Position numbers and translations under genes: made by a program. Positions 1,018-19,377 of a DNA stretch of 27,300 bases are shown one piece after another; the stretch's first letter is position 1, and the number at the start of each line of letters is the position of its first letter. This DNA comes from a virus. The notes under the pieces were generated by a model. It saw only the letters and a program-made list of their open reading frames with translations. It was not told the origin of the DNA and searched no databases. The stretch lies in IMG/VR virus record IMGVR_UViG_3300042521_001903, positions 1 through 27,300 of that record. The stretch is one strand, 5' to 3'.

Positions 1018-1116
1018 ATGCCAGACTATGACTTGACACCGTTGGTGTTCGTGGGAGCGTTGTTGCTCCCGGGGCTGATCGCACACATTCTCAAGAGGGG
1101 GTGCGACAATGAGTGA
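1018..1116 (+). CDS. Very small single-pass membrane protein
   Basis: The product has 32 residues. A short acidic head (MPDYD) is followed by one hydrophobic segment, LTPLVFVGALLLPGLIAHIL, and a charged tail KRGCDNE, so the C-terminus is probably cytoplasmic. The start is fixed by a good ribosome binding site (GAAAGG, seven bases upstream) just after the leader hairpin. Its stop overlaps the next gene by eight bases, so the two are translationally coupled. It is the first gene of the operon carrying the RecT-like protein. Function is unknown. Confidence 0.6.
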   Translation: MPDYDLTPLVFVGALLLPGLIAHILKRGCDNE

Positions 1117-2029
1117 CATTGTGCTTTCTCGTCCCGGCGGCGGCGCGCAACTCGACCCAATGACGGTCGCGCGCGTGTTCCGCGAGTCGGGAATGTTCCC
1201 CGACATCCATCACGAAGCCGCAGCGGCGGCGAAACTCATCATCGGTCGTGACCTGGGGATTTCAGACTACGACGCGATGTCGGGTCTGCACATCATCAAG
1301 GGCAAGGCAGTGTTGGCCGCAAACCTCATGGCAGCGGCCATCAAGAGGAGCGGCAAGTACGACTACCGCGCGACGTGTACGGATACCGAGTGTCGCATCC
1401 AGTTCCTCGGGCGCACGGCTTCCGGGTGGGAGCCTATCGGGGAAACCACTTTCACGATGGAGGATGCCAAGCGCGCCGGGTTGAACGGCGACAACTGGCG
1501 CAAGTATCCGCGCGCCATGCTGTTTGCGCGCGGCATTTCCGCCGGGTACAAGCAGCATTGCCCGGATGCGCTCGGATGCGCGCCCGTCTACGTCGAGGCG
1601 CACGGGGAAACGGAGATCACGGAGGACGCGCCGCCGCCACCAGTGCGAAAGGCGCTGCCCGCACCCGCGCCGACCCGGGAGGAACGCCAAGCGCTGTTTG
1701 ATCCGAAGCCGAAGGCGGCGTTGCCCGCACCGGCGGCGGAAATCCCCATCGACGGTGGCACGGATCGCGCGCCGGATGCGGCGGCTCCCAACGTCGTCCG
1801 GCTCCGTCCGGGTGCAACCCGGGTCACGCGCGTAGACCGGAAGACGGGCGGCGCTGTGTGGCGCGTGGATGTCGATGGCGAGGAGATGCCGTACGCGATC
1901 ACGGAGGCGGCGCTCGCGGATTCGGTGCAAGCCCAACTGGCTTTCAAGGTCACGTGCGATGCGACGTTCCGCACGAACAGCGACGGGAAGCGAATCATCC
2001 AGACCATTGAGGAGGTGGGGCATGGTTGA
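1109..2029 (+). CDS. RecT-like single-strand annealing protein with added C-terminal domain
   Basis: The 306-residue protein resembles phage RecT-family annealing proteins, which coat and pair single strands during replication and recombination. Residues 15-75 hold the family-like start (GMFPDIHHEAAAAAKLIIGR, then LGISDYDAMSGLHIIKGK). Residues 114-160 hold the most telling part: TFTMEDAKRAGL, then WRKYPRAMLFARGISAG and CPDALG. After a Pro/Ala-rich linker (about 172-235) comes a compact beta-rich stretch, 236-303 (GGAVWRVDVDGEEMPYAIT), which looks like an OB-fold or SSB-like add-on. The ATG at 1109 overlaps the previous gene and has an AGAGGGGG binding site. RusA, Gp157 and a loader-like protein nearby fit a replication/recombination role. 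The exact annealing family is not certain. Confidence 0.65.
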   Translation: MSDIVLSRPGGGAQLDPMTVARVFRESGMFPDIHHEAAAAAKLIIGRDLGISDYDAMSGLHIIKGKAVLAANLMAAAIKRSGKYDYRATCTDTECRIQFLGRTASGWEPIGETTFTMEDAKRAGLNGDNWRKYPRAMLFARGISAGYKQHCPDALGCAPVYVEAHGETEITEDAPPPPVRKALPAPAPTREERQALFDPKPKAALPAPAAEIPIDGGTDRAPDAAAPNVVRLRPGATRVTRVDRKTGGAVWRVDVDGEEMPYAITEAALADSVQAQLAFKVTCDATFRTNSDGKRIIQTIEEVGHG

Positions 2030-2700: not shown

Positions 2701-3276
2701 ATGACAGCAAGCGAACTGGCGGCGTTTCTCACACGCGCGCGCGAACTATTCCCGCGCGGCGCTGAGAATCAAGACGTGTACGCGGCATTCCAACACAGGC
2801 TGAAGGAGGAGGATTCCGAGCGCGCGAACGCTGCGCTTGAGGATTACGCCGTGCATCACGCGGGCGCGGGTAGGTGGTTCATCCCCGGGGTGTTCATGCA
2901 GCACCTTGCAAGGCAACCAGACTCCCGCGAGCAGCGCGAGACGACGGAGCGCATTGCGAAAGCCCGCGAGGAGCGGAGCGCGTATGAGGCGGCGGTTGAA
3001 GCCGACTGGCAGCGGATGCGCCGCCGGGTGGCGGCGGCTGACCCGTTCGTGGTCGCGGAGGTTGTCGATAGGCTCCGAGACTGCGGGTGGCGCGTCGATG
3101 GTGGCGACCCCGAGCGGTGGAGCCGTTCCGTGATCGTGTGCATCGTGGAGCATCTGGAGGGACGAGGACTGCCGACATGGGCGCGGGAGCGGGGTAGGCT
3201 CGCGTCTACGCCGCGCGCGCGAGCGGAGGCGGTGTCCGGGGGGCTTTCGGCTCCTACGTCTCAGACGGGCGTATAG
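2701..3276 (+). CDS. Early protein, possibly helicase-loader-like
   Basis: The 191-residue product starts at the ATG at 2701 with GAAAGG eight bases upstream. Residues 1-75 follow the pattern of small phage replication proteins of the G39P helicase loader/inhibitor type: a hydrophobic helix (ELAAFLTRARELFP), an aromatic-rich helix (DVYAAFQHRLKEED), an Ala/Tyr helix (ANAALEDYAVHH) and then RWFIPGVFMQHLARQ. Residues 75-110 are a charged Arg/Glu helix, and the end is Gly/Ser/Pro-rich. The resemblance is one of pattern only, so the loader role is a suggestion. The gene stands alone between a terminator-like hairpin and the convergent HTH gene. Confidence 0.5.
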   Translation: MTASELAAFLTRARELFPRGAENQDVYAAFQHRLKEEDSERANAALEDYAVHHAGAGRWFIPGVFMQHLARQPDSREQRETTERIAKAREERSAYEAAVEADWQRMRRRVAAADPFVVAEVVDRLRDCGWRVDGGDPERWSRSVIVCIVEHLEGRGLPTWARERGRLASTPRARAEAVSGGLSAPTSQTGV

Positions 3277-3785: not shown

Positions 3786-4178
3786 ATGCAGAACGACACA
3801 ACGAACATCAACATCATGATTGCCAGCCTGACCGACCGCCAGCGCCGCGAGTTCGCTGTGTGGTGCGCGGAGCGTGTGCGCCACCTGATGACTGATTCGC
3901 GCAGCACCGCCGCTCTCGATGTCGCGGCTCGGCATCTGCGCGGCGAGGCGACGGACGAGGAACTGGATGAGGCGGGGGATGCGGCGCGGGCTGCGGCGCG
4001 GGATGCGGCGTGGACTGCGGAGGCTGCGGATGGGGATGCGGCGTGGGCTGCGGCGGCTGCGGCGTTGGCTGCGGCGTGGCATGCGGCGTGGGCTGCGGCG
4101 CGGGCTGCGGCGCACCATGCCGAACTCGCATCGCAACGCGAGCAGTTGCAGCGGATGCTCGCGGAGGTGAAGTCGTGA
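3786..4178 (+). CDS. Ala/Trp-rich helical protein
   Basis: The 130-residue product has a mixed N-terminal part (residues 1-58, including LTDRQRREFAVWCAERVRHL) and then a long Ala-rich helix with regularly placed Trp and Asp (DAAW, HAAW, DAAR units, about residues 60-112). It ends with a short charged helix (ASQREQLQRMLAEVKS). Such AAW repeats recur in five members of the coiled-coil array at 6.3-9.2 kb, so this protein may be related to them. The start has an AGGAG site just after the leader hairpin. The stop overlaps the next start (GTGA). No function can be given. Confidence 0.65.
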   Translation: MQNDTTNINIMIASLTDRQRREFAVWCAERVRHLMTDSRSTAALDVAARHLRGEATDEELDEAGDAARAAARDAAWTAEAADGDAAWAAAAAALAAAWHAAWAAARAAAHHAELASQREQLQRMLAEVKS

Positions 4179-4381
4179 ACGAAAAAATCGAACTATCCCG
4201 GAAATTCGTCGTGGAAATCTTGGACGATCTCAACCTTCTCCACGATTACATGGGTGACGATCCGGAGCCAAAACGCCAGGGCAAAGACGAAGAACAGCGC
4301 CACTACCAAGACAAACAGAGAGTCCTTGAATCAATCCGCGCGTTGCGGTTCATCCTCAAGACAACGGAAGGTGCGAAATGA
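4175..4381 (+). CDS. Small charged phage protein
   Basis: The product has 68 residues from a GTG at 4175 that overlaps the previous stop by four bases; GGAGG lies upstream. It is highly charged and helical (NEKIELSRKFVVEILDDLNL, then QDKQRVLESIRALRFILK). It overlaps the following Gp157 gene through ATGA, so it is probably made together with it. I do not recognise a family. Confidence 0.6.
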   Translation: MNEKIELSRKFVVEILDDLNLLHDYMGDDPEPKRQGKDEEQRHYQDKQRVLESIRALRFILKTTEGAK

Positions 4382-4899
4382 AACAGACACTCCTTGACAT
4401 CACCGAAGACATGGCCGCCATCGACGCGCTCCTTGCAGAGTCCGGCGGCGAAATCACCCCGGAAACCGAAGGCACGTTAAATGCTTGGTTCGCGGAGTTG
4501 GACACCAACTTTACCGGCAAAGTGGACAACTACTGCGCTCTCATCACGGAAATTGAGTCTCGCGCGGCAGTGCGCAAGGCGGAAGCCGACAGGCTGTACG
4601 AGCGCGCAAGGATCGACGAGAACGCATCAAACGCGCTGCGCGAGCGGCTGCGGTTCGTTTGGGAGTTGCGAGCAATGGGAAAGGTTCAGACCTCGCGCTA
4701 CACCGTGGCGCTCGCAAAGAACGGCGGCAAAGCCAAACTGGACGTGCGCTGTGGCGTGGAGGACTTGCCGTCGTGGGCAGTCGTAACCGAAACCACGGTG
4801 AAGCCGAACACCGACGCAATCCGCGAGAGACTGGAGCGCGGGGAAACGCTCGACTTCGCGTCACTCATGGAGCGCGGTACGCGAATCAACATCAAGTAA
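4378..4899 (+). CDS. Siphovirus Gp157 family protein
   Basis: The 173-residue protein matches the Gp157 family known from siphoviruses of streptococci and many others: a helical first half with a Glu-rich coiled coil (ALITEIESRAAVRKAEADRL, then NASNALRERLRFVWELRAMG) and a beta-rich second half (KVQTSRYTVALAKNGGKAKL, then LPSWAVVTETTVKPNTDAIR and INIK at the end). Family members sit in early replication/recombination operons, as here just upstream of RusA; their molecular role is not settled. The length is usual for the family. The start overlaps the previous gene (ATGA). Confidence 0.88.
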   Translation: MKQTLLDITEDMAAIDALLAESGGEITPETEGTLNAWFAELDTNFTGKVDNYCALITEIESRAAVRKAEADRLYERARIDENASNALRERLRFVWELRAMGKVQTSRYTVALAKNGGKAKLDVRCGVEDLPSWAVVTETTVKPNTDAIRERLERGETLDFASLMERGTRINIK

Positions 4900-4965
4900 T
4901 CCGGATACGGGCGCGACGTGTTGAGTCCATCTAGCGTCCGTATCTATCGCGCGCGTTGCGCGAAC

Positions 4966-5015
4966 CGTGCCGGGGTGAACCCGTCAGTTACCCTCGCTGC
5001 GAACACCCCGGCGCG
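4966..5015 (+). promoter_or_regulatory. Long stem-loop in the leader of the 5029 gene
   Basis: CGTGCCGGGGTG (4966-4977) pairs with CACCCCGGCGCG (5004-5015) over 12 bp with one G-T pair, closing a 26-base loop. It lies in the 129-base gap between Gp157 and the gene at 5029, ending 13 bases before that ATG. It could hold transcripts or modulate translation of the downstream genes. There is no T-run, so it is not an obvious terminator. Confidence 0.4.
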
Positions 5016-5028
5016 GAACCTTTCAAAC

Positions 5029-5256
5029 ATGACCAGACCCTATCTTTCAGTTCGTGTATCGCGTGGCCTCAATACCCTCATGGCGCGTTCCGTGCCACAG
5101 GACGAGGATGAAATCAAGGCGCTGAGATACGTGCAACGGATGCTGCTACGATCCGCGCTGCGGCAACGTCAGGACGACGGAGCGAGTACCACGCGAGCCG
5201 CGCCGGTTAGGCCGGGGGAGCAATCTCCCGGCCTACCGGGGGAGGAAACATCGTGA
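5029..5256 (+). CDS. Small basic protein upstream of RusA
   Basis: The ATG at 5029 gives 75 residues: a beta-like N-terminus (MTRPYLSVRVSRGLNTLMAR), a helix (DEDEIKALRYVQRMLLRSAL) and a Gly/Pro tail. The frame is open upstream to a TTG at 4918, but that would run through the hairpin at 4966-5015, so the shorter form is preferred. The 3' end overlaps the RusA start (GTGA) and holds an inverted repeat that may affect RusA translation. Family unknown. Confidence 0.5.
   Translation: MTRPYLSVRVSRGLNTLMARSVPQDEDEIKALRYVQRMLLRSALRQRQDDGASTTRAAPVRPGEQSPGLPGEETS
5208..5244 (+). promoter_or_regulatory. Inverted repeat that can hide or free the RusA ribosome binding site
   Basis: TAGGCCGGG (5208-5216) pairs with CCCGGCCTA (5227-5235). 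The stretch CTCCCGG inside this pairing can alternatively pair with CCGGGGGAG (5236-5244), which contains the ribosome binding site of the rusA gene (start 5253). The two pairings exclude one another. Ribosomes finishing the upstream gene would pass through the structure, which fits translational coupling. Confidence 0.35.
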
Positions 5257-5612
5257 CCAGAGAAATCACGATTACGCTACCGCTGCCGCCGAAGTCGCTG
5301 TCACCTAACGCGCGCGTTCATTGGGCGACAAAAGCCCGCGCGACAAAGTCTTATCGCTCTACCGCGAAATACCGCGCGAGTTTTGAAGCGCCGTCGAAGC
5401 CGTGGCGGCAAGTCGAAATACACGCGACGTTCGTATTTGCTACGAACCGCCGCCGTGACAAAGACAATCTGCTTGCGTCACTCAAGGCCGCGTTTGATGG
5501 TCTGGTGGACGCGGGCATCGTCGAAGATGACGCGGGCGTTTCTCATGCGCCGATGACGCTCAAGACGATTGAAGAAAGCGTAACGCTGAAAGTGCGGTGC
5601 TTAGATGAATGA
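5253..5612 (+). CDS. rusA: RusA-family Holliday junction resolvase
   Basis: The 119-residue protein matches RusA, a dimeric endonuclease that cuts four-way DNA junctions during recombination and before packaging. Visible marks are the N-terminal LPLPPKSLSPNARVHW (residues 9-24) and the catalytic NRRRDKDNLLASLKAAFDGL (65-84) with Asp69 and Asp71. VEDD (90-93) follows, supplying the third acidic residue. E. coli RusA uses Asp70, Asp72 and Asp91, so spacing and length agree. The GTG start overlaps the previous stop, with a GGGGGAGG site upstream. It lies in the same operon as Gp157. Confidence 0.92.
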   Translation: MTREITITLPLPPKSLSPNARVHWATKARATKSYRSTAKYRASFEAPSKPWRQVEIHATFVFATNRRRDKDNLLASLKAAFDGLVDAGIVEDDAGVSHAPMTLKTIEESVTLKVRCLDE

Positions 5613-5976: not shown

Positions 5977-6331
5977 CGAGGCGTACGAATCATCGGAACT
6001 TTCCGCGAATCGCGCGAAGATTGCCACTCTGATTATGGAGTGTCCGCGCACGTGCGACGAGATTGTGTCGATGGGCTACGCTCACCAGAGCGCGAGCGCG
6101 TCCATCAATTGGCTGATGCGTCGTGGCTTGATCGTGCCAACTGGCGAGACACGAACAACGCGCATGGGTCGCCGCGCCATCGTGTGGCGGCATGAGCCAA
6201 ACCCGCATCCGATTTCTACGTTACGACCGACGCGCAGTGAACTGGAGCGGCGAATATCTGCCGCGTTGTTTCACATTGGCGATACCGACGAGACGTTGTA
6301 CGCAATTCTTACAGGGGAGGTGCAGCGATGA
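5840..6331 (+). CDS. Winged-helix DNA-binding protein
   Basis: The 163-residue product has a strong GAGGAG site eight bases before its ATG. After an unstructured head, residues 55-115 form a winged helix of a kind common in phage early regions: RAKIATLIMECPRTCDEIV, then HQSASASINWLMRRGLIV, and the wing TGETRTTRMGRRAIVWRH. The helix pair around TCDEIVSMGYAHQSASASIN is the HTH, and the TRMGRRA wing would contact DNA. The C-terminal 45 residues (LERRISAALFHIGDT) are acidic and helical. It is probably a regulator of phage transcription or replication. It overlaps both neighbours, and its stop overlaps the first gene of the coiled-coil array (ATGA). Confidence 0.7.
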   Translation: MMTRRYESDPLMRSPVPQPLGELFQGAATDCGRPTARQSTRRATSDEAYESSELSANRAKIATLIMECPRTCDEIVSMGYAHQSASASINWLMRRGLIVPTGETRTTRMGRRAIVWRHEPNPHPISTLRPTRSELERRISAALFHIGDTDETLYAILTGEVQR

Positions 6332-6819
6332 GCAGCGATTTCAACACATGGTGGCGCGATATTGGCAGCGGAATCAGGCCGTTGGCAAGACATGATTACG
6401 AGCAACACGGTCAACGGATTTCGATGTTGGCGTGGAATGACTCGTCTGTGAGAGCCACCGCCGATATCACCCGTCTCCGCGCCGAACTCGCGCAGCGCAC
6501 CGCCGAGCGCGACGCTCTCGCAGCCGAGGTCGCCGCGCTCAAGGCTCAGCCCGACCCGCTCGCGGAGATGTGGCGCGAACTCGCGGAGTACCAGCCGTTC
6601 GCCGACCGCGATGGACACGGCGACTCATGGCGAGCCATGTGCGCGGAGCGGACGGACGCGGCTGCGCACGCGGCGGCGCTGGCTGCGGCGTGGGCGTCGC
6701 CTGCGGCGACTGCCGCAGAATGGGCTAAGTATGCGGCGTTTGCGCTTTCGAACGCGGGACAGCCAGAAGCAGAGAGCGCCATCGCCGCGATCCGCCGTGC
6801 GAAGGAGGGGCAGCGATGA
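6328..6819 (+). CDS. Coiled-coil array protein 1 (long form)
   Basis: This 163-residue protein is the first member of a mosaic family. After a unique head (1-45) come the shared modules: ITRLRAELA (47-55), QRTAERDALAAEVAALKA (56-73), PDPLAEMWREL (75-85), DGHGDSWRAMCAERT (95-109), an Ala/Trp-rich helix (110-135) and the tail AIAAIRRAKEGQR. Members at 7052, 7447, 7797 and 8724 share this order. The heptad pattern predicts a coiled coil; no signal peptide or catalytic motif is visible. The tail codons hold GAAGGAGGGG, the ribosome binding site of the next gene, which overlaps by ATGA. Function unknown. Confidence 0.7.
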   Translation: MSSDFNTWWRDIGSGIRPLARHDYEQHGQRISMLAWNDSSVRATADITRLRAELAQRTAERDALAAEVAALKAQPDPLAEMWRELAEYQPFADRDGHGDSWRAMCAERTDAAAHAAALAAAWASPAATAAEWAKYAAFALSNAGQPEAESAIAAIRRAKEGQR

Positions 6820-7055
6820 GCGACCCCACCAACGACATCAATGAACTGCTTGCACTTTTTGAGAGGTTGAGTAGGTCGACGAGCGGTCTGCTTTTCGAGC
6901 GCCGTCACCACGCCCTCACCGCGCTTCTCGCCGAGCGCGACGAGGCGCGGCGGGAGGTGTGTGAGTTGAGGGCTGATCTTCGCGTCAACCCTACCTGCAA
7001 GAGGCAGGTCGCCGCCGAGCGCGGGTGGGACTGCTTCAAGGAGGATGGGCAATGA
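6816..7055 (+). CDS. Coiled-coil array protein 2 (GWDCF form)
   Basis: The 79-residue product has a unique head (MSDPTNDINELLALFERLSR), then AERDEARREVCEL and the ending AAERGWDCFKEDGQ. The AERDEARREVC module and the GWDCF ending recur in the genes at 8503 and, altered, at 10058. It is coupled on both sides by ATGA overlaps. The Cys residues at VC and DCF are conserved among the three copies. No known family is recognised. Confidence 0.65.
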   Translation: MSDPTNDINELLALFERLSRSTSGLLFERRHHALTALLAERDEARREVCELRADLRVNPTCKRQVAAERGWDCFKEDGQ

Positions 7056-7450
7056 GCGACACAGACATCTTGGATCGCCTGTCTAATCGGAAAACTTGGC
7101 TTGAACTGGAGGGGCTTGATCCGTCAGCCGCCGATGTTCAGTCAGCGATTGAGGAAATAGACCGCCTCCGCGCCGAGGTCGCCGCGCTCAAGGCGAACGA
7201 CCCGCTCGCGGAGATGTGGCGCGAGTTGGAGGCGTATCAGGAGCAAGCGAACCGTGATGGACACGGGGAGTCGTGGCGGCGGATGTGCGAGGAACGGACA
7301 CAGGCGGCGGCGTGTAATGCGGCGCATGCGGCGCGGGAATTTTCGCGGGAATCGGCGTGGTCTGCGTCGTATGCGGTGCGGGAAGCGGCGCAGATGTCGG
7401 CAACGGCGGCCATCGCCGCGATCCGCCGCGCGAAGGAGGGGCAGCGATGA
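7052..7450 (+). CDS. Coiled-coil array protein 3 (long form)
   Basis: The product has 132 residues. Its head (MSDTDILDRLSNRKTWLELE, residues 1-20, and on to about 47) is encoded by DNA that recurs almost perfectly in the gene at 9747. The centre (DPLAEMWRELEAYQEQANRD, then GHGESWRRMCEERT) is almost identical at DNA level to the gene at 8724. The variable Ala-rich stretch (84-118) and the tail IAAIRRAKEGQR follow. It is therefore a hybrid of blocks found separately elsewhere in the array. The start overlaps the previous stop, and an AAGGAGG site lies upstream. Confidence 0.7.
   Translation: MSDTDILDRLSNRKTWLELEGLDPSAADVQSAIEEIDRLRAEVAALKANDPLAEMWRELEAYQEQANRDGHGESWRRMCEERTQAAACNAAHAAREFSRESAWSASYAVREAAQMSATAAIAAIRRAKEGQR
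7053..7192 (+). repeat. Duplicated block A, copy 1
   Basis: Bases 7053-7177 are identical to 9748-9872. After one G/A difference (7178 against 9873) identity goes on to 7192, giving 139 matches in 140. The block encodes the head and DRLRAE[VI]AALK part of two array genes that differ completely afterwards. Confidence 0.85.
7174..7293 (+). repeat. Duplicated block B, copy 1
   Basis: Bases 7174-7293 match 8993-9112 with one difference (A7196 against C9015). The block encodes the VAALKA to MCEE part of two array genes with unrelated heads and different Ala-rich tails. It partly overlaps block A, so this gene joins two duplications. Confidence 0.85.
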
Positions 7451-7800
7451 ACGACCGAGCCAAAGAACTTGCAGACGAGTTGCGTGAGGACGGCGTATTC
7501 GTTGATGCCGCTGATGAGTTAGACCGACTCCGCGCCGAAGTCGACGCGCTCAAGAAGGCCGACCCCCTCGCGGAGATGTGGTGGAAGTTGAGCAAGTACC
7601 AAGAGCAAGCAGACCGAGACGGCCACGGCGAGTCGTGGCGAGCCATGTGCAGCGAGAAAACGCAGTCTGCGGCGTGGTATGCGGCGGAGTTTGTGCCGGA
7701 AGCGGCGGCGCGGGATGCGGCGGCTGCGGCGGGGACTGCGGCGATCTGCGCACAACGCGCCATAGCCGCGATCCGTAAGGCGAAGGAGGCGAAGCGATGA
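7447..7800 (+). CDS. Coiled-coil array protein 4 (long form)
   Basis: The product has 117 residues. Its head, RAKELADELREDGVFVDAAD (4-23), is shared with the gene at 8503. It continues with ELDRLRAEVDALKKADPLAE and DGHGESWRAMCSEKT, then an Ala-rich variable stretch (WYAAEFVPEAAARDAAAAAG) and the tail IAAIRKAKEAKR. The start overlaps the previous stop (ATGA) behind GAAGGAGGGGCAGCG. The head DNA resembles that at 8503 with scattered, mostly third-position changes, so this exchange is older than blocks A and B. Confidence 0.7.
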   Translation: MNDRAKELADELREDGVFVDAADELDRLRAEVDALKKADPLAEMWWKLSKYQEQADRDGHGESWRAMCSEKTQSAAWYAAEFVPEAAARDAAAAAGTAAICAQRAIAAIRKAKEAKR

Positions 7801-8249
7801 GCGACACCAAAGACATCGTACAACGACTGCAAAACCATTACGAACGCTGCGAGATTGACATCGAAAGAGCCGTTGTGGAGATCAAGCGCCTTCGCGCCGA
7901 CCTCGCGCAGCGCACCGCCGAGCGCGACGCTCTCGCAGCCGAGGTCGCCGCGCTCAAGGCGCACGACCCGCTCGCGGAGATGTGGCGCGAGTTGGCGGAG
8001 TATCAAGAGCAAGCGGACGCAAACGGCCACGGCGACACATGGCGAGCCATGTGCCATAAGCGAACGGAAGAAGCGGCGTCGGCGGCGTATCTGGCGCGGC
8101 AATGGTCAAGCCATGTCGCGGCTGCGGCGTATGGCGCATGGTGGGCAGCGCAGCGGGATGCGGCGGTTCGACGGATTTCGAATGATGCAGTCAAGTGGGC
8201 GGCGGACGCGGTGGCCGCTATCCGCCGCGCGAAGGAGGGGCAGCGATGA
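7797..8249 (+). CDS. Coiled-coil array protein 5 (long form)
   Basis: The 150-residue product has a unique head (MSDTKDIVQRLQNHYERCEI), then the modules IKRLRADLA, QRTAERDALAAEVAALKA, DPLAEMWRELAEYQEQAD and GHGDTWRAMCHKRT. The variable part is rich in Ala and Trp (WSSHVAAAAYGAWWAAQRDA), followed by AAIRRAKEGQR. The first two shared modules match those of the gene at 6328 very closely at DNA level. The start is coupled by ATGA behind AAGGAGGCGAAGCG. Confidence 0.7.
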   Translation: MSDTKDIVQRLQNHYERCEIDIERAVVEIKRLRADLAQRTAERDALAAEVAALKAHDPLAEMWRELAEYQEQADANGHGDTWRAMCHKRTEEAASAAYLARQWSSHVAAAAYGAWWAAQRDAAVRRISNDAVKWAADAVAAIRRAKEGQR

Positions 8250-8506
8250 GCGACACACCGAGGACGGACGCGGCGAGAAAACACGCCTTCACGAATAGCG
8301 GAATGCGCTCAGAATCCGTGGTTCCTGTATCGCTGGCGTATGAACTGGAGCGCGAACTCGCGAAGCGCACCGCCGAGCGCGACGAGGCGCTACTCAGATG
8401 GCAGCGGCTGTATAACGAGATTGACTGCCGTGTAGAGCATGGTGCGAACAGCAATGGCCATCTTGAGGCCATCCGCAAGATGATGCAGAAGGAGGCGAAG
8501 CCATGA
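8246..8506 (+). CDS. Coiled-coil array protein 6 (MMQKE form)
   Basis: The product has 86 residues: MSDTPRTDAARKHAF at the head, then LAYELERELAKRTAERDEAL and the ending IRKMMQKEAKP. The motif MSDTPRTDAA is frequent at the start of small phage proteins. The RTAERDEA module links it to the array, and MMQKE[AV]KP links it to the gene at 9451. The C-terminal codons again contain the next ribosome binding site (AGAAGGAGG). Confidence 0.7.
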   Translation: MSDTPRTDAARKHAFTNSGMRSESVVPVSLAYELERELAKRTAERDEALLRWQRLYNEIDCRVEHGANSNGHLEAIRKMMQKEAKP

Positions 8507-8727
8507 GCGACCGAGCCAAAGAACTTGCGGACGAACTGCGCGCGGATGGCGTATTCGTTGACGCCGCCGACGAGATCGACCGCCTCCGCGCCGAAGTCGC
8601 GCGGCGCACCGCCGAGCGCGACGAGGCGCGGCGGGAGGTGTGCTACGCATACGGTTCGAGAGCGGAGACGCTGGCTGCTGCCGAGCGGCGCGGCTGGGAC
8701 TGCTTCGACGCCAAGGAGGTGCGATGA
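8503..8727 (+). CDS. Coiled-coil array protein 7 (GWDCF form)
   Basis: The product has 74 residues. The head RAKELADELRADGVFVDAAD matches the gene at 7447. IDRLRAEVARRTAERDEARR joins it to the other modules, and the ending AAERRGWDCFDAKEVR matches the gene at 6816. It is the clearest hybrid in the array: the head of a long-form member with the tail of a short-form one. The start overlaps the previous stop (ATGA), and CAAGGAGGTGCG serves the following gene. Confidence 0.7.
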   Translation: MSDRAKELADELRADGVFVDAADEIDRLRAEVARRTAERDEARREVCYAYGSRAETLAAAERRGWDCFDAKEVR

Positions 8728-9239
8728 GCGACACACCGAACATTGACAACTCCGAAGAACTTACCAAGAATTCGTTTCCGCCTCTTGATCCCGATCCGAT
8801 TGGAGATAATGGGCGGGAATGGGAACTCGGGATTCTTCGACTTCGGAATCTGATCGGTCAACAGGAAATGCTGGTCGAGGGCGCGAAACGCGAGATGAGT
8901 CTGGGAGCATGGACTTACAACTGGACTCAGCCTCACGCCGAACTGCAAGGAATGATCGACGATCTGATCACCAAACTAAGGAGAGCGAAGGGCGAGGTCG
9001 CCGCGCTCAAGGCGCACGACCCGCTCGCGGAGATGTGGCGCGAGTTGGAGGCGTATCAGGAGCAAGCGAACCGTGATGGACACGGGGAGTCGTGGCGGCG
9101 GATGTGCGAGGAGCGCACGGAGCAATCGGCGCGGGATGCTGCGCGGGATGCTGCGCGGGCTGAGAAGGCTTCGTCGTATGCGGTTGCGTATGCGTCGTGC
9201 GCGGTGGCAGAGATCCGCCGCGCGAAGGAGGCGAAGTGA
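8724..9239 (+). CDS. Coiled-coil array protein 8 (long form)
   Basis: The product has 171 residues. The long head (1-88, MSDTPNIDNSEELTKNSF, then RNLIGQQEMLVEGAKREMSL) is unique in the window. The second part is block B: GEVAALKAHDPLAEMWRELE, then DGHGESWRRMCEERTEQ. A short Ala-rich segment with tandem ARDAARDAAR follows, then AEIRRAKEAK. The DNA of block B is nearly identical to that of the gene at 7052. The stop TGA overlaps the next ATG by one base. Confidence 0.7.
   Translation: MSDTPNIDNSEELTKNSFPPLDPDPIGDNGREWELGILRLRNLIGQQEMLVEGAKREMSLGAWTYNWTQPHAELQGMIDDLITKLRRAKGEVAALKAHDPLAEMWRELEAYQEQANRDGHGESWRRMCEERTEQSARDAARDAARAEKASSYAVAYASCAVAEIRRAKEAK
8993..9112 (+). repeat. Duplicated block B, copy 2
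   Basis: This is the partner of 7174-7293, with one difference in 120 bases. In this gene it is joined to a head not found elsewhere in the window. Confidence 0.85.
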
Positions 9240-9454
9240 TGCCGACAACGATTTACATCGGCTCTGAGTCGCAACGCACTGGCATCAGCATTGAATGGAC
9301 TCCGTCTACCGAAAGGCTGTACATCTCAGGTTGGTACGACGGCATGGTCGGCATCGAAGGCGAATCACTGACCCTGCGCGAGTTCTTCGACCGCCTGAAC
9401 ATCACCGAGGCGCATTGCCGCAAGGCGTTCCGTGCGAAGGAGGCGAAGCCGTGA
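9239..9454 (+). CDS. Array gene 9, beta-rich small protein
   Basis: The 71-residue product is unlike the others in its body: IYIGSESQRTGISIEWTPS, then LYISGWYDGMVGIEGESLTL, looks beta-stranded, and REFFDRLNITEAHCRKAF is helical. Only its end RAKEAKP follows the array pattern, because those codons hold the AAGGAGG site of the next gene. It starts one base inside the previous stop (TGATG). Function unknown. Confidence 0.65.
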   Translation: MPTTIYIGSESQRTGISIEWTPSTERLYISGWYDGMVGIEGESLTLREFFDRLNITEAHCRKAFRAKEAKP

Positions 9455-9750
9455 ACCTCCTCACCTACCTGCTCTCCTGCAAGCCATTTCGCACTCCGCT
9501 TCCGCCGTCTCGTCCACGATGCGAGACTGCGGAAGAGCCGTACTTTGCGGGGTACGAGGATCGCATGGCGGGAAACGGCATGAGCGTACACGCGGGCGTG
9601 TACATGACGGAGTGCCTGTGCGTGCGATGCACCGAGTACCGCGCGGGATGGCTCGCGGCGCACGAAGACCGCATCGTCTATCTCGACAAGGCGCGAAAGC
9701 GTGCGAGGAAACTGGCGCGCAAGATGATGCAGAAGGAGGTGAAGCCGTGA
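9451..9750 (+). CDS. Array gene 10, Cys-containing small protein
   Basis: The 99-residue product comes from a GTG that overlaps the previous stop by four bases. CETAEEPYFAGYEDRMAGNG, then VYMTECLCVRCTEYRAGWLA, contains a C-x-C-x2-C cluster that could bind a metal; I do not know a matching family. The end RKMMQKEVKP is shared with the gene at 8246. The KARKRARKLARK stretch is strongly basic. Confidence 0.65.
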   Translation: MNLLTYLLSCKPFRTPLPPSRPRCETAEEPYFAGYEDRMAGNGMSVHAGVYMTECLCVRCTEYRAGWLAAHEDRIVYLDKARKRARKLARKMMQKEVKP

Positions 9751-10061
9751 GCGACACAGACATCTTGGATCGCCTGTCTAATCGGAAAACTTGGCTTGAA
9801 CTGGAGGGGCTTGATCCGTCAGCCGCCGATGTTCAGTCAGCGATTGAGGAAATAGACCGCCTCCGCGCCGAGATCGCCGCGCTCAAGCCCCAAAGCAACG
9901 CTGATGAGTTTGCTTCGATCCCACTCAGTTCGTGGGTGATCGAAGTCTTCCATCATCTCTGCGACAGTCCGCACACGCCCGATTCGTGGAAGCGCGACTT
10001 GAATAAGAAGACACAAGTGCTCCTCAACGCCATCGAGCAGGGGAAGGAGGCGAAGCCGTGA
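9747..10061 (+). CDS. Coiled-coil array protein 11
   Basis: The 104-residue product comes from a GTG start. Residues 1-47 are the same as in the gene at 7052, because the DNA is block A. From PQSNADEFASIPLSSWVIEV onward the protein is unrelated to any other member and has no DPLAEMWREL module. It ends EQGKEAKP, whose codons carry the GGAAGGAGG site of the next gene. The contrast between near-perfect head and foreign tail marks a recent recombination or duplication. Confidence 0.7.
   Translation: MSDTDILDRLSNRKTWLELEGLDPSAADVQSAIEEIDRLRAEIAALKPQSNADEFASIPLSSWVIEVFHHLCDSPHTPDSWKRDLNKKTQVLLNAIEQGKEAKP
9748..9887 (+). repeat. Duplicated block A, copy 2
   Basis: This is the partner of 7053-7192, with 139 of 140 bases identical. 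The start codon changes from ATG in copy 1 to GTG here because the repeat begins one base after the first start base. Confidence 0.85.
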
Positions 10062-10363
10062 CCTTCGATCCAAGGCCATACGGATCTAAGATTCCCGATG
10101 ACATCGTGGCGTCTGATTACATCGGGGAGATCAAGAACCTCCGCGCCGACCTCGCGCAGCGCACCGCCGAGCGCGACGAGGCGCGGCGAGATTGCTGCGC
10201 TTTTGAAGGCATTCTACGTTTCAACAATGCGCATCCGAAGGGCATCATTTCACAAGAAGCAACCCTGCGTCTCGCTAACGAGATCGCCGTAGAGCGCGCG
10301 TGGGACTGCTTCACAACGCACACGAACACGCCAGATGTTCCCGTGCAGAACGGAGGTGAATGA
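10058..10363 (+). CDS. Coiled-coil array protein 12 (WDCF form)
   Basis: The 101-residue product starts from a GTG behind AAGGAGGCGAAGCC. A unique head is followed by IKNLRADLAQRTAERDEARR, shared with the genes at 6816, 7797 and 8503, then CCAFEGILRFNNAHPKG. ERAWDCF is a variant of the GWDCF motif, with an extra tail after it. It is the last member of the family. The stop overlaps the ATGATG of the next gene. Confidence 0.65.
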   Translation: MTFDPRPYGSKIPDDIVASDYIGEIKNLRADLAQRTAERDEARRDCCAFEGILRFNNAHPKGIISQEATLRLANEIAVERAWDCFTTHTNTPDVPVQNGGE

Positions 10364-10581
10364 TGTTCCTATGCGGCATCGACGCGGACGGGCAACCATC
10401 CGCAATCAACATCACCGACTGTCGAACGATTAGCCTTGTCTCCTATGACGATGGCGACGTGCTTGTTGTCGAGTTCAGCGACATCGAGATAGTACAGTCG
10501 GTAGAGGCGGAAGACGCGACGATCTGCACACCGCAGCGCGTAGCGGCTGTGCTCATGAGTCTCAAGGAGCGGAAACGATGA
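10360..10581 (+). CDS. Small acidic beta-rich protein
   Basis: The product has 73 residues (MMFLCGIDADGQPSAINI, then VSYDDGDVLVVEFSDIEIVQ, ending MSLKERKR). It looks like a small beta-barrel or sandwich with a C-terminal helix and has no array module. The start is coupled to the previous gene by ATGA behind CGGAGGTGA. Two ATG codons are adjacent, and either may be used. Function unknown. Confidence 0.6.
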   Translation: MMFLCGIDADGQPSAINITDCRTISLVSYDDGDVLVVEFSDIEIVQSVEAEDATICTPQRVAAVLMSLKERKR

Positions 10582-11020: not shown

Positions 11021-11057
11021 AACCGGCTCCGTTTCACGTGGAGCCGGTTTCCTTTTT
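11021..11057 (+). terminator. Rho-independent terminator
   Basis: AACCGGCTCC (11021-11030) pairs perfectly with GGAGCCGGTT (11040-11049) around a nine-base loop, followed by TCCTTTTT. This is the most canonical intrinsic terminator in the window and ends the long early operon, 22 bases after the stop at 10999. Confidence 0.88.
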
Positions 11058-17404: not shown

Positions 17405-17869
17405 GTGAGACTGAACATCGGATCGGGTAGCGATACGGAAGATGGGTGGATACCGTGGGACATCGCGCACGGGAACTACGCGCAGCGCATCAATATGCCG
17501 GACGCATCGGTAGAGGCAATCCGCGCGTCTCATGTGCTTGAACACATCGCGCGCGTTGAGACGCTATCGACGCTGAAAGAGTGGCGACGGGTACTCAAGC
17601 CGGGTGGACGACTATTCGTCGCCGTGCCTGACTTTGATCGGATCGTATCTCAGATGGCGGCGGGTTCCAAAGACCCCAACATGGAAGCGTACATCATGGG
17701 TGGGCAGACCGACGTACACGACTTCCATTGCGCGATCTTCAACGAAGCCAAACTGCGCCAGTTGTTGGAGTTGGCGGGATTCCAGCGCATCGCGGAGGTC
17801 GGCAAGGAAGGCGAGAAGTGGAACTGCTCTCATCACTGGTGCAGTTTGAACATGGAGGCGTTCGCGTGA
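17405..17869 (+). CDS. Class I SAM-dependent methyltransferase
   Basis: The 154-residue protein has RLNIGSGSDTEDGWIPWDI (2-20) as motif I and the first acidic strand. IRASHVLEHIARVETLSTLK (39-58) follows, then EWRRVLKPGGRLFVAVPDFD (59-78), as in Methyltransf_11-type enzymes. The last part (about 99-128, GGQTDVHDFHCAIFNEAKLR and LLELAGF) and HWCSLNMEAF complete the fold, though it is short for the family. The substrate is unknown; in phages such enzymes often modify sugars or proteins. A GTG start follows AGGAGG. Its second half resembles the head of the glycosyltransferase fusion at 26490. The stop overlaps the next gene (GTGA). Confidence 0.78.
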   Translation: MRLNIGSGSDTEDGWIPWDIAHGNYAQRINMPDASVEAIRASHVLEHIARVETLSTLKEWRRVLKPGGRLFVAVPDFDRIVSQMAAGSKDPNMEAYIMGGQTDVHDFHCAIFNEAKLRQLLELAGFQRIAEVGKEGEKWNCSHHWCSLNMEAFA

Positions 17870-19377
17870 AGTCGGAAACCGTCCCCATCGACTCGCTGAA
17901 CTTCGATCCCGCCAATGTCCGCAAGCACGGCGAGCAGAACCTTGCCACGATCAAGGCGAGCCTCAACCGCTTCGGCCAGCAGAAACCAATCGTGGTGGAT
18001 GCCAATGGCGTTGTCCGCGCCGGAAACGGCACCCTGATGGCCGCTAAGGCGCTCGGGTGGAAAGAGATAGCCGTAGTACGCTCGACGCTCGCGGGCAGCG
18101 AGGCGACCGCCTACGCCATTGCGGACAACCGTACCGCCGAACTCGCGGAGTGGGACGAGGACGCGCTTGCCGAGACGCTTTCTGCGCTCCAGTGCGAGGA
18201 CGAGGCGTTGCTCGACGCGGCGGGCTTCGACTCGGCGGAACTGTCGAGGATGATCGACGGCATGGCCGAGGTGACGGAGGACGAGGTTCCTGAGCCGCCA
18301 GCGGAGCCGATCACAAAGCCGGGCGACCTGTGGTTGTTGGGCGAGCATCGTGTGCTCTGCGGCGACTCCACGAAGCCCGAGGATGTCGAGCGGCTGATGG
18401 CGGGAGCGAAGGCGGCTTTGATTGCGGCAGATCCGCCGTACTTCGGGAAGGTGGACGCGGCATGGGACAACGACTTCGATGGTTACGAGGATTTCCTCGG
18501 CTTCCTCGACTCCGTGTTTGCCCAATGGGCTCTAGTAATGATCGAACGCGGAACCGCAGGCTGGTGGTGCGCTCCTGATTTCGCATGGCACATCGAAGGA
18601 CTTCTTCGGAAGCGGTTCGCCGTCTTCAATCACATCGTTTGGTACAAGGGCGACGGCTTGGGTACGACGGCATCCGTTGATGATATGCGTCGATGGAGGC
18701 CGCGAAGCGAGCGCCTGTTGCTTTGCGAAATGCTGCACTCGCCCGACGCCTTGCTCGCATCGTTCAACGCAAAGACGGCGCACATAGCAGCAAGATCGGC
18801 CTACTCTGCCATCATCGAACGCATGGCGGGATGGAGAAAGCAAGCGGGCATTTCTCTTGCTGAGATCGACAAGTGCCTCGGGACAAAGGGAATGGCCGGA
18901 CACTACTTCACACCGTCGCAATGGTCGCTCCCAACGCTAGAAGCATGGAGCAGGCTCCAGCCGCTTTTCGCGGCACGCGGCGTTGACATCGGCGAGCATT
19001 CAGCCCAGCGCAGCGAGTTCGACGCCCAGCGCAGAGAGTTCGACGCCCAGCGCAGCGAGTTCGACGCCCAGCGCAGAGAGTTCGACGCCCAGCAGGCCAA
19101 GACGGATGTTTGGCATATGTCTGCGCCGCATGGGCAAGATAGAAACGGCCACCCAACGCCAAAGCCTCTAGAACTGATGGTGAAGATAGTCGGCGCGCAT
19201 TCACGCCGTGAAGACCTTGTCGCCGACCCGTTCCTCGGCAGCGGCACGACCCTCATCGCCGCCGAGCAACTGGGGCGCAAGTGCTACGGCATGGAGATCA
19301 GCCCTGCCTACTGCGATGTCATCGTGAAGCGGTGGGAGACACTCACGGGAAGGAAGGCCGAACTTGCCAAGGGCTAA
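17866..19377 (+). CDS. ParB-like domain fused to DNA N6-adenine/N4-cytosine methyltransferase
   Basis: This is a 503-residue, two-part protein. Residues 5-95 form a ParB/Srx-like domain (IDSLNFDPANVRKHGEQN, then RAGNGTLMAAKALG). From 150 on lies a DNA amino-methyltransferase: LLGEHRVLCGDST, then the catalytic DPPY (189-192), and DPFLGSGTTLIAAEQLGRKC near the end for cofactor binding. DPPY before the FLGSGTT motif marks the beta class. Between them is a target-recognition region with AGISLAEIDKCLGTKGMAGH and, at about 381-409, four 7-residue repeats of the AQR[SR]EFD type. The target site is not deducible. Such enzymes protect phage DNA or act in regulation. A GTG start overlaps the previous gene. 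Confidence 0.88.
   Translation: MKSETVPIDSLNFDPANVRKHGEQNLATIKASLNRFGQQKPIVVDANGVVRAGNGTLMAAKALGWKEIAVVRSTLAGSEATAYAIADNRTAELAEWDEDALAETLSALQCEDEALLDAAGFDSAELSRMIDGMAEVTEDEVPEPPAEPITKPGDLWLLGEHRVLCGDSTKPEDVERLMAGAKAALIAADPPYFGKVDAAWDNDFDGYEDFLGFLDSVFAQWALVMIERGTAGWWCAPDFAWHIEGLLRKRFAVFNHIVWYKGDGLGTTASVDDMRRWRPRSERLLLCEMLHSPDALLASFNAKTAHIAARSAYSAIIERMAGWRKQAGISLAEIDKCLGTKGMAGHYFTPSQWSLPTLEAWSRLQPLFAARGVDIGEHSAQRSEFDAQRREFDAQRSEFDAQRREFDAQQAKTDVWHMSAPHGQDRNGHPTPKPLELMVKIVGAHSRREDLVADPFLGSGTTLIAAEQLGRKCYGMEISPAYCDVIVKRWETLTGRKAELAKG
19006..19089 (+). repeat. Four tandem 21-bp repeats inside the methyltransferase gene
   Basis: Units at 19006, 19027, 19048 and 19069 are 21 bases each, reading CAGCG-CAG[CA]GAGTTCGACGCC, with one base alternating between odd and even units (Ser or Arg codon). 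They encode QR[SR]EFDA four times. The period is in frame, so copy changes leave the enzyme readable. A partial fifth unit (CAG) follows. Confidence 0.85.

Follow-up and report, generated by a model that had tools for sequence, protein, structure and literature searches.

An array of translation-coupled small genes in a tailed-phage genome, with probable module exchange at two conserved DNA joints

Twelve coupled genes and their common kit

The stretch of DNA analysed here (the window) is the entire IMG/VR virus record IMGVR_UViG_3300042521_001903, 27,300 bases in length. In tailed-phage surroundings (Gp157 at 4378, terminase, portal, capsid) it contains an array of twelve small genes, designated w1 to w12 in order, which spans positions 6328-10363 and lies entirely on the plus strand. 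Genes of other contigs are designated by locus id and gene start, as in L017_827. An initial annotation had described twelve small coupled genes, and all twelve open reading frames were found in place. At ten of the eleven internal junctions the genes overlap by 4 nucleotides (nt; ATGA or GTGA), and at the remaining one, 9239, by 1 nt. The region is most probably an early accessory region of translation-coupled, exchangeable cassettes, which owe their diversity to exchange at two conserved joints in the DNA, one between the genes and one inside them.

The common kit of modules proposed in the annotation was confirmed for ten of the genes, which combine several heads with a single linker and a small set of ends, but not for w9 (9239) and w10 (9451), which lack the linker and have only the tail in common with the others. 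The annotated counts of long forms and termini proved correct. Five proteins, w1, w3, w4, w5, and w8 (starts 6328, 7052, 7447, 7797, and 8724), contain the core DPLAEMWREL...DGHG[ED][ST]WR.MC; three, w2, w7, and w12 (6816, 8503, and 10058), terminate in RGWDCF or AWDCF; and two, w6 (8246) and w10, in MMQKE-KP. The terminus of w11 is SNADEFASIPLSSW. At the DNA level, repeat families of 190 nt, 155 nt and other lengths are present in the array, and GCGGCG-type repeats occur within hypervariable helices rich in alanine and tryptophan (Ala/Trp).

In w1 (6328..6819), a unique head is followed by linker, DGHG core, and Ala/Trp helix. The WDCF end of w2 (6816..7055), which has a head of its own, is common to L053 and L073 at 94-95% DNA identity under different heads. 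w3 (7052..7450) has the head of w11, the DGHG core of w8, and an end common to L005, while w4 (7447..7800) shares its head with w7 and continues with DGHG core and Ala helix. Linker and DGHG core are present in w5 (7797..8249), the core and end of which are 95.9% identical to L017 over 319 nt under a different head. The PRTDAA head of w6 (8246..8506), which has the tail MMQKEAKP, is joined to a different end in L074 (139/143 nt, 97.2%). The gene w7 (8503..8727) had been described as the w4 head combined with the w2 end; the head was verified (84/97 nt), but the closest relative of the end is L020_10844, with 103/103 nt in common under a different head. The head of w8 (8724..9239) is found in L017 in a gene with a SNADEF end, w8 itself having the DGHG core. 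The linker-less cassette w9 (9239..9454) recurs in L029, a phage of 45% guanine plus cytosine (GC) content, with 201/207 identical nt (L029 368-586), and in L064 (95.5%); w10 (9451..9750), likewise without linker and with the tail MMQKEVKP, recurs in L028 (86%). In w11 (9747..10061) the w3 head precedes a SNADEF end, which is found at 91-97% in genes of L020, L017, and L064 with three different heads, and w12 (10058..10363) has a WDCF end and the tail TPDVPVQNGGE. Cassettes of the w10 type (window 9451-9750, L028 11909, L061 7000, L008 3627) recur across arrays with the possibly metal-binding motif PRCETAEEPYxAGYEDR...CxCxRC...YRAGW.

Related arrays and recombined modules

Scans of IMG/VR yielded 7 and then 33 loci, to which flank and single-module scans added further ones. 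The modules of the window recur, differently combined, in about 30 IMG/VR contigs, in DNA blocks of 94-100% identity that end abruptly at the two joints, and gene calling revealed that most relatives have the same type of array, with small coupled genes and recombined heads and ends. The module shuffling suggested in the annotation is supported by these relatives. A constant gene order with uniform divergence was not observed: L020 agrees with the window in the 3' flank and the last end (94%), while the intervening genes and the head-end pairs differ, and blocks of 95-100% identity with abrupt ends make divergence non-uniform.

Four genes illustrate the pattern. The heads of w3 and w11 are identical in 139/140 nt (99.3%) and those of w8 and L017_827 in 287/291 nt (98.6%), with different ends in both pairs, while the ends of w11 and L017_827 agree in 174/182 nt (95.6%) and the cores of w3 and w8 in 119/120 nt (99.2%). 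Two heads and two ends thus occur in all four combinations at 95.6-99.3% identity, an outcome not given by descent without exchange. Eight four-combination sets were detected among 219 dereplicated genes, clustered by their first 35 residues (heads) and last residues (ends). A two-parent chimera is present in L053, with the head of L020_11804 (205/205 nt) and the end of w2 (103/109 nt, 94.5%). These DNA comparisons give strong support to module exchange. Local tandem duplication with gene conversion in a single phage lineage, without exchange between phages, could have produced the modules duplicated in the window (w3/w11 head, w4/w7 head, w3/w8 core). This explanation, which deserves hardly any credence, is contradicted by modules of 95-100% identity in phages that differ from this one in GC and gene content (L029, L017, L064, L020).

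Headless forms, consisting of core and Ala/Trp helix only, occur in L033 (9505-10246), L035 (9989-10264), L036 (9989-10261), and L040 (3710-4365), indicating that the core can stand alone. They are paired in L033 and L040. The phages with headless genes differ in GC content, about 40% in L033 and L035 and about 57% in L036, and the GC-poor ones again have a GC-rich cassette region. A cassette of 40-43 residues with a single membrane span (LLAIGAAVGLxxxYLIWG) accompanies the arrays in L029 (9654-9785), L021 (6413-6544), and L039 (10258-10380) and uses the same joint as they do.

A tblastn search of cultured phages with the w8 protein gave no match, and a scan of prokaryote genomes with a pattern from the core alignment gave no confirmed relative. 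A further prokaryote scan, for which the Ala/Trp gene next to the array was used, yielded nothing beyond distant matches in one Euryarchaeota and one Sandaracinaceae bin, and therefore no host was assigned. Terminase and capsid matches were below 60% identity and scattered over many hosts.

Two joints and exchange between phages

Joint 1, between the genes, is a Shine-Dalgarno sequence with stop-start overlap, GCGAAGGAGG-NGNAGC-ATGAGCGACAC. The type example GCGAAGGAGGGGCAGCGATGAGCGACCCC is located at 6799..6827, and repeats of the 21-nt joint consensus with at most two mismatches at 7430, 7780, 8229, 8486, 9222, 9434, 9730, and 10041, all on the plus strand. The consensus occurs nine times, always within the array, compared to 0.09 occurrences expected by shuffling. 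Directly upstream of the start, AAGGAGG is present in 11 of the 12 array genes and in none of the 32 other called genes of the window. Over 73 cassette starts from many contigs, joint 1 contains 13.9 bits of information upstream of the start, versus 5.7 in neighbouring genes, and 7.0 bits, versus 2.1, within the opening codons of the gene that follows; the latter values indicate that conservation exceeds the need for ribosome pairing. The short tail listed in the annotation as a protein module does exist, but is the coding side of this signal, AKEGQR, AKEAKP, and MMQKE-KP being joint 1 read as protein. No report of a Shine-Dalgarno overlap used as exchange boundary was found in the literature. 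The cassette layout with its constant joint sequence would also fit a dedicated integron-like system, in which a site-specific recombinase acts at the inter-gene joint. Such a system is very improbable, since inverted repeats of at least 12 nt are absent from the array, no site-specific recombinase was detected among the window proteins searched (the contig may be incomplete), and the second joint is inside coding sequence. Some array-bearing contigs harbor, by inspection, an ordinary phage-type integrase, for example L005 (3827-5005).

Joint 2 is the DNA of the coiled-coil linker RLRAE-LAQRTAERD. In w1 this intragenic joint is located at 6472..6546, and the other linkers of the array, also on the plus strand, are at 6924-6941, 7163-7195, 7525-7542, 7887-7961, 8363-8383, 8581-8622, 8991-9014, 9858-9890, and 10136-10177. 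The segment AQRTAERD is encoded by identical DNA (24/24 nt) in all 11 occurrences from six contigs, at an expected codon identity of 0.41. For RLRA[EDN][LV], codon identity is 0.78 versus 0.34 expected, and for the DGHG motif just 0.64 versus 0.50. A linker 25-mer was detected in a scan of the collection in 10 viral contigs, often in two or three copies each, and in four newly found ones, for which gene maps were read, the linker genes belong to such arrays as well. Spacings between linker landmarks are 6, 13, 20, 27, 48; 9, 37; 6, 13, 20, 34, 41, 48; and 10, 17, 31. Within a class, 16 of 17 distinct spacings are in register modulo 7, with 46 as the exception, a count for which the classes were set after inspection and the sequences are related and non-independent. 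Spacings in heptad register imply that the coiled coil is maintained, whole heptads being gained or lost, and chimeras would keep its register because linker lengths differ by whole heptads.

Phages of 43-45% GC contain GC-rich cassettes, and composition changes exactly at the joints. In L029 (about 45% GC) such cassettes are present at two places. The gene before the second insertion ends with KESKR-RAKEVQR, while its homologue in L036 ends with NKESKR; as read from the sequence, the extra residues RAKEVQR stem from a donor joint, attached behind the joint of the recipient. L056 represents the same contig as L029. There the gene before the first insertion, rich in adenine and thymine (AT-rich), ends with PEEVQP, encoded by the joint AGAAGAGGTGCAGCCGTGA, at which GC content rises from 40 to 59% before it returns to 42% at the next joint. 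Around this insertion site, L056 also has a local family of repeated genes (2811-3197, 4838-5197, 5197-5538, 6220-6567; KxxWxxALRSGxYxQGxxxLC...YCCLGVLxDL). L017 (about 43% GC) carries quite different cassettes immediately upstream of the same AT-rich flank gene as L029, the flanks being 81% identical. Gene L064_2284, with a SNADEF end, has 37% GC before and 60% after the linker, which identifies it, by its composition, as the product of a joint 2 exchange between phages of different composition. These comparisons show at the DNA level that cassettes and half-genes have been exchanged at the two joints and across phages.

Composition switches of this kind might be artefacts if repeats had led the assembler to join unrelated genomes. 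All relatives are indeed metagenome contigs, repeats of 60-100 nt at the joints could mislead short-read assembly, and the L017 array is at a contig end. Chimeric assembly is nevertheless an extremely weak candidate: the same arrangements were found at 99-100% in independent metagenomes (L014/L015, L021-L024, L071/L072/L074, L036-L038, L020/L027/L068), GC-rich cassettes are present in three AT-rich contigs from three metagenomes, two of them with AT-rich genes on both sides, and every frame is open across the joins.

Whether the joints guide exchange was weighed against illegitimate, non-homologous exchange occurring anywhere, after which selection would retain only those joins that fall on a gene border or within a tolerant coiled-coil linker. 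Such an explanation has been given for gene-border breakpoints in many phages (PMC3029335), and it would cover those block ends that fall outside both joints, where the conserved core stops. It appears unlikely, without being negligible, because the linker DNA is conserved at synonymous sites, a 45% GC phage included, because conservation of joint 1 continues past the start of the following gene (ATGAGCGACAC), a segment required neither for ribosome pairing nor for a coiled coil, and because one L029 insertion left a second signal, that of the donor, behind the signal of the recipient.

As seen in the sequences, exchange at the two joints takes two forms. Whole cassettes are swapped at the inter-gene joint, consisting of the strong Shine-Dalgarno sequence, the ATGA/GTGA overlap, and the opening codons of the following gene, and a cassette with this joint at both ends would stay in frame and translated once inserted. 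Head and end halves are swapped at the linker DNA, and cassettes pass between unrelated phages. A RecT-like protein and RusA near the array, as annotated, were both identified in the window on the plus strand: a RecT-like single-strand annealing protein (1109..2029; phrog_561, E 1e-16; no Pfam match) as candidate recombinase and a RusA-like Holliday junction resolvase (5253..5612; phrog_34, E 9e-23). RusA homologues were also detected inside or near the arrays of L005, L007, L008, L014, L018, L028, and L039. In line with De Paepe et al. 2014 (PMC3945230), who described Rad52/RecT-family recombinases that create phage mosaics by relaxed homology, we infer homologous annealing as the route of exchange, carried out by phage recombinases, the RecT-like protein among them, while RusA would resolve the junctions.

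Two counts speak for exchange at the joints, within limits. Of 72 block ends between window and contigs, 49 fall on one of the joints, a value reached by none of 5000 random placements, but the count is inflated by short linker-only matches and the block sequences are related and non-independent. Linker genes with the same head also have the same end in 37/123 pairs, versus 81/125 for other genes of the same neighbourhoods such as Gp157, RusA, and flank genes (Fisher 4e-8); the pairs are not independent and this comparison is supportive only, block identity at the DNA level being the stronger evidence. Some points weigh against the proposed explanation. Conservation of the joints could in part result from selection for translation and for the coiled coil rather than from service in recombination. 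No exact empty site for an insertion was found, L017 and L029 having one site with different contents, and no homologue, domain or fold match in Pfam, PHROGs, PADLOC, PDB, or Foldseek searches supports a function.

Known systems, possible roles, and neighbouring genes

Mosaicism of phage protein domains by ongoing shuffling of fragments is known from receptor-binding proteins, endolysins, and replication proteins (Smug et al. 2023, PMC10684548). More of it was predicted there for accessory proteins and proteins of unknown function, and coiled-coil cases could not be confirmed. The array resembles this mosaicism in that otherwise unrelated proteins have recently exchanged homologous fragments across phage types, as in w7 and L020_10844, and the near-identical DNA by which recent exchange is recognised there is found here in the 94-100% blocks with abrupt ends. 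It differs in that tiny accessory coiled-coil genes are arranged in tandem and one fixed joint is used. In module exchange at boundary sequences of phage genes (cited in PMC3029335), short conserved DNA likewise borders the exchanged segments. In the array, the boundary doubles as Shine-Dalgarno sequence and stop-start overlap and is repeated over 11 borders in a row, and a further boundary is located within the genes. The array probably works like domain mosaicism combined with boundary-sequence exchange. With Rad52/RecT mosaicism it would share the likely enzymology, the phage encoding both a RecT-like protein and a resolvase.

Start-Associated Sequences of Cluster K mycobacteriophages (PMC3203893) and Microbacterium Cluster EF phages (PMC7302621) are also repeated motifs that contain a Shine-Dalgarno sequence upstream of many non-structural starts and are conserved beyond the need of a ribosome site. 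However, their motif differs, extended inverted repeats are absent here, and the array motif was observed as a breakpoint; the 13-bp Cluster K sequence GGGATAGGAGCCC has no match in the window at two mismatches or fewer. Integron cassette arrays share tandem exchangeable cassettes and a constant joint, but the array has no attC-like palindromes, no integrase was found among the window proteins searched, and the joint overlaps coding sequence. By the tests made, the array is very probably not an integron, no inverted repeats being present in it. A diversity-generating retroelement is unlikely, since what is exchanged are long blocks and not single positions. What appears to be new is one array with two standard joints, one a translation signal and one heptad-locked, common to unrelated phages.

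Phage genomes are rich in tiny accessory genes of unknown origin and use, and homology guidance of mosaic joints has been debated for decades. The two joints of the array are reusable, have exact positions and heptad-locked lengths, and coincide with changes of composition between unrelated phages, and recombination at the joints as well as interaction of the interchangeable halves therefore become directly testable. The inter-gene joint may also serve as a sequence handle for locating accessory-gene pools in metagenomes.

The exchanged blocks, pooled, showed synonymous (pS) and nonsynonymous (pN) differences of 0.129 and 0.052, a ratio of 0.41; the calculation was restricted to these blocks, since whole local protein alignments mixed exchanged and unrelated parts. 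According to this ratio, the blocks are under moderate purifying selection, and together with whole-heptad linker changes it indicates that the products are selected coiled-coil proteins. AlphaFold2 models of w5 (helices 2-55, 58-75, 79-103, 105-148; predicted local distance difference test, pLDDT, 85.6; predicted template modelling score, pTM, 0.47) and w12 (helix 14-58 and one short helix; pLDDT 83.2, pTM 0.59) are both all-helical. Searches with the array proteins gave nothing above cut-off in Pfam and PHROGs and nothing among PDB sequences; the best match to the known defence and anti-defence families of PADLOC (E 0.008) was coiled-coil noise, and the w5 model had no Foldseek match in viral and PDB libraries.

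As possible roles, the annotation had named decoys, anti-defence proteins, and partners that would co-assemble. The products might be small oligomerising adaptors, in which heads would pick partners and ends would bind targets, and the set might, more speculatively, supply exchangeable factors for host takeover or counter-defence. An accessory adaptor role of this kind is the favoured, though tentative, guess. It is rather doubtful that the arrays form a combinatorial protein-building system across unrelated phages, with two standard joints preserving translation and register and products that co-assemble as changeable anti-host adaptors. Cassettes could instead be self-spreading or near-neutral filler that persists through easy gain via homologous joints rather than through benefit to the phage. 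No functional homologue was found and the hypervariable Ala/Trp helices hold GCGGCG-type repeats, as such filler might, but the pN/pS ratio of 0.41, the preserved heptad register, and strong translation signals at almost all starts make near-neutral cassettes improbable.

The array is followed by a conserved gene with the motif MMFLCGxD (10360..10581, plus strand), which also follows other arrays (L018, L020, L025, L028, L039, L053). A terminator-like 12-bp stem with T tract at 11021..11049 on the plus strand, by consensus match only, may mark the end of the operon, and a promoter scan gave a result at chance level. The gene at 3786-4178 has a conserved N-terminus, RQRREFAxWCAERVRHLM (phrog_18326, function unknown), and a repeat-built Ala/Trp tail, the length of which varies strongly among phages (L020, L032, L036, L039). 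Within the ParB-like/DNA methyltransferase gene at 17866-19377, a 21-nt tandem repeat of 4.3 copies (19003-19093) encodes heptads of the SEFDAQR type. A minus-strand open reading frame of 121 residues without PHROG match is present at 654-1019 between the tail-type and RecT-like genes, in opposite orientation to its neighbours.

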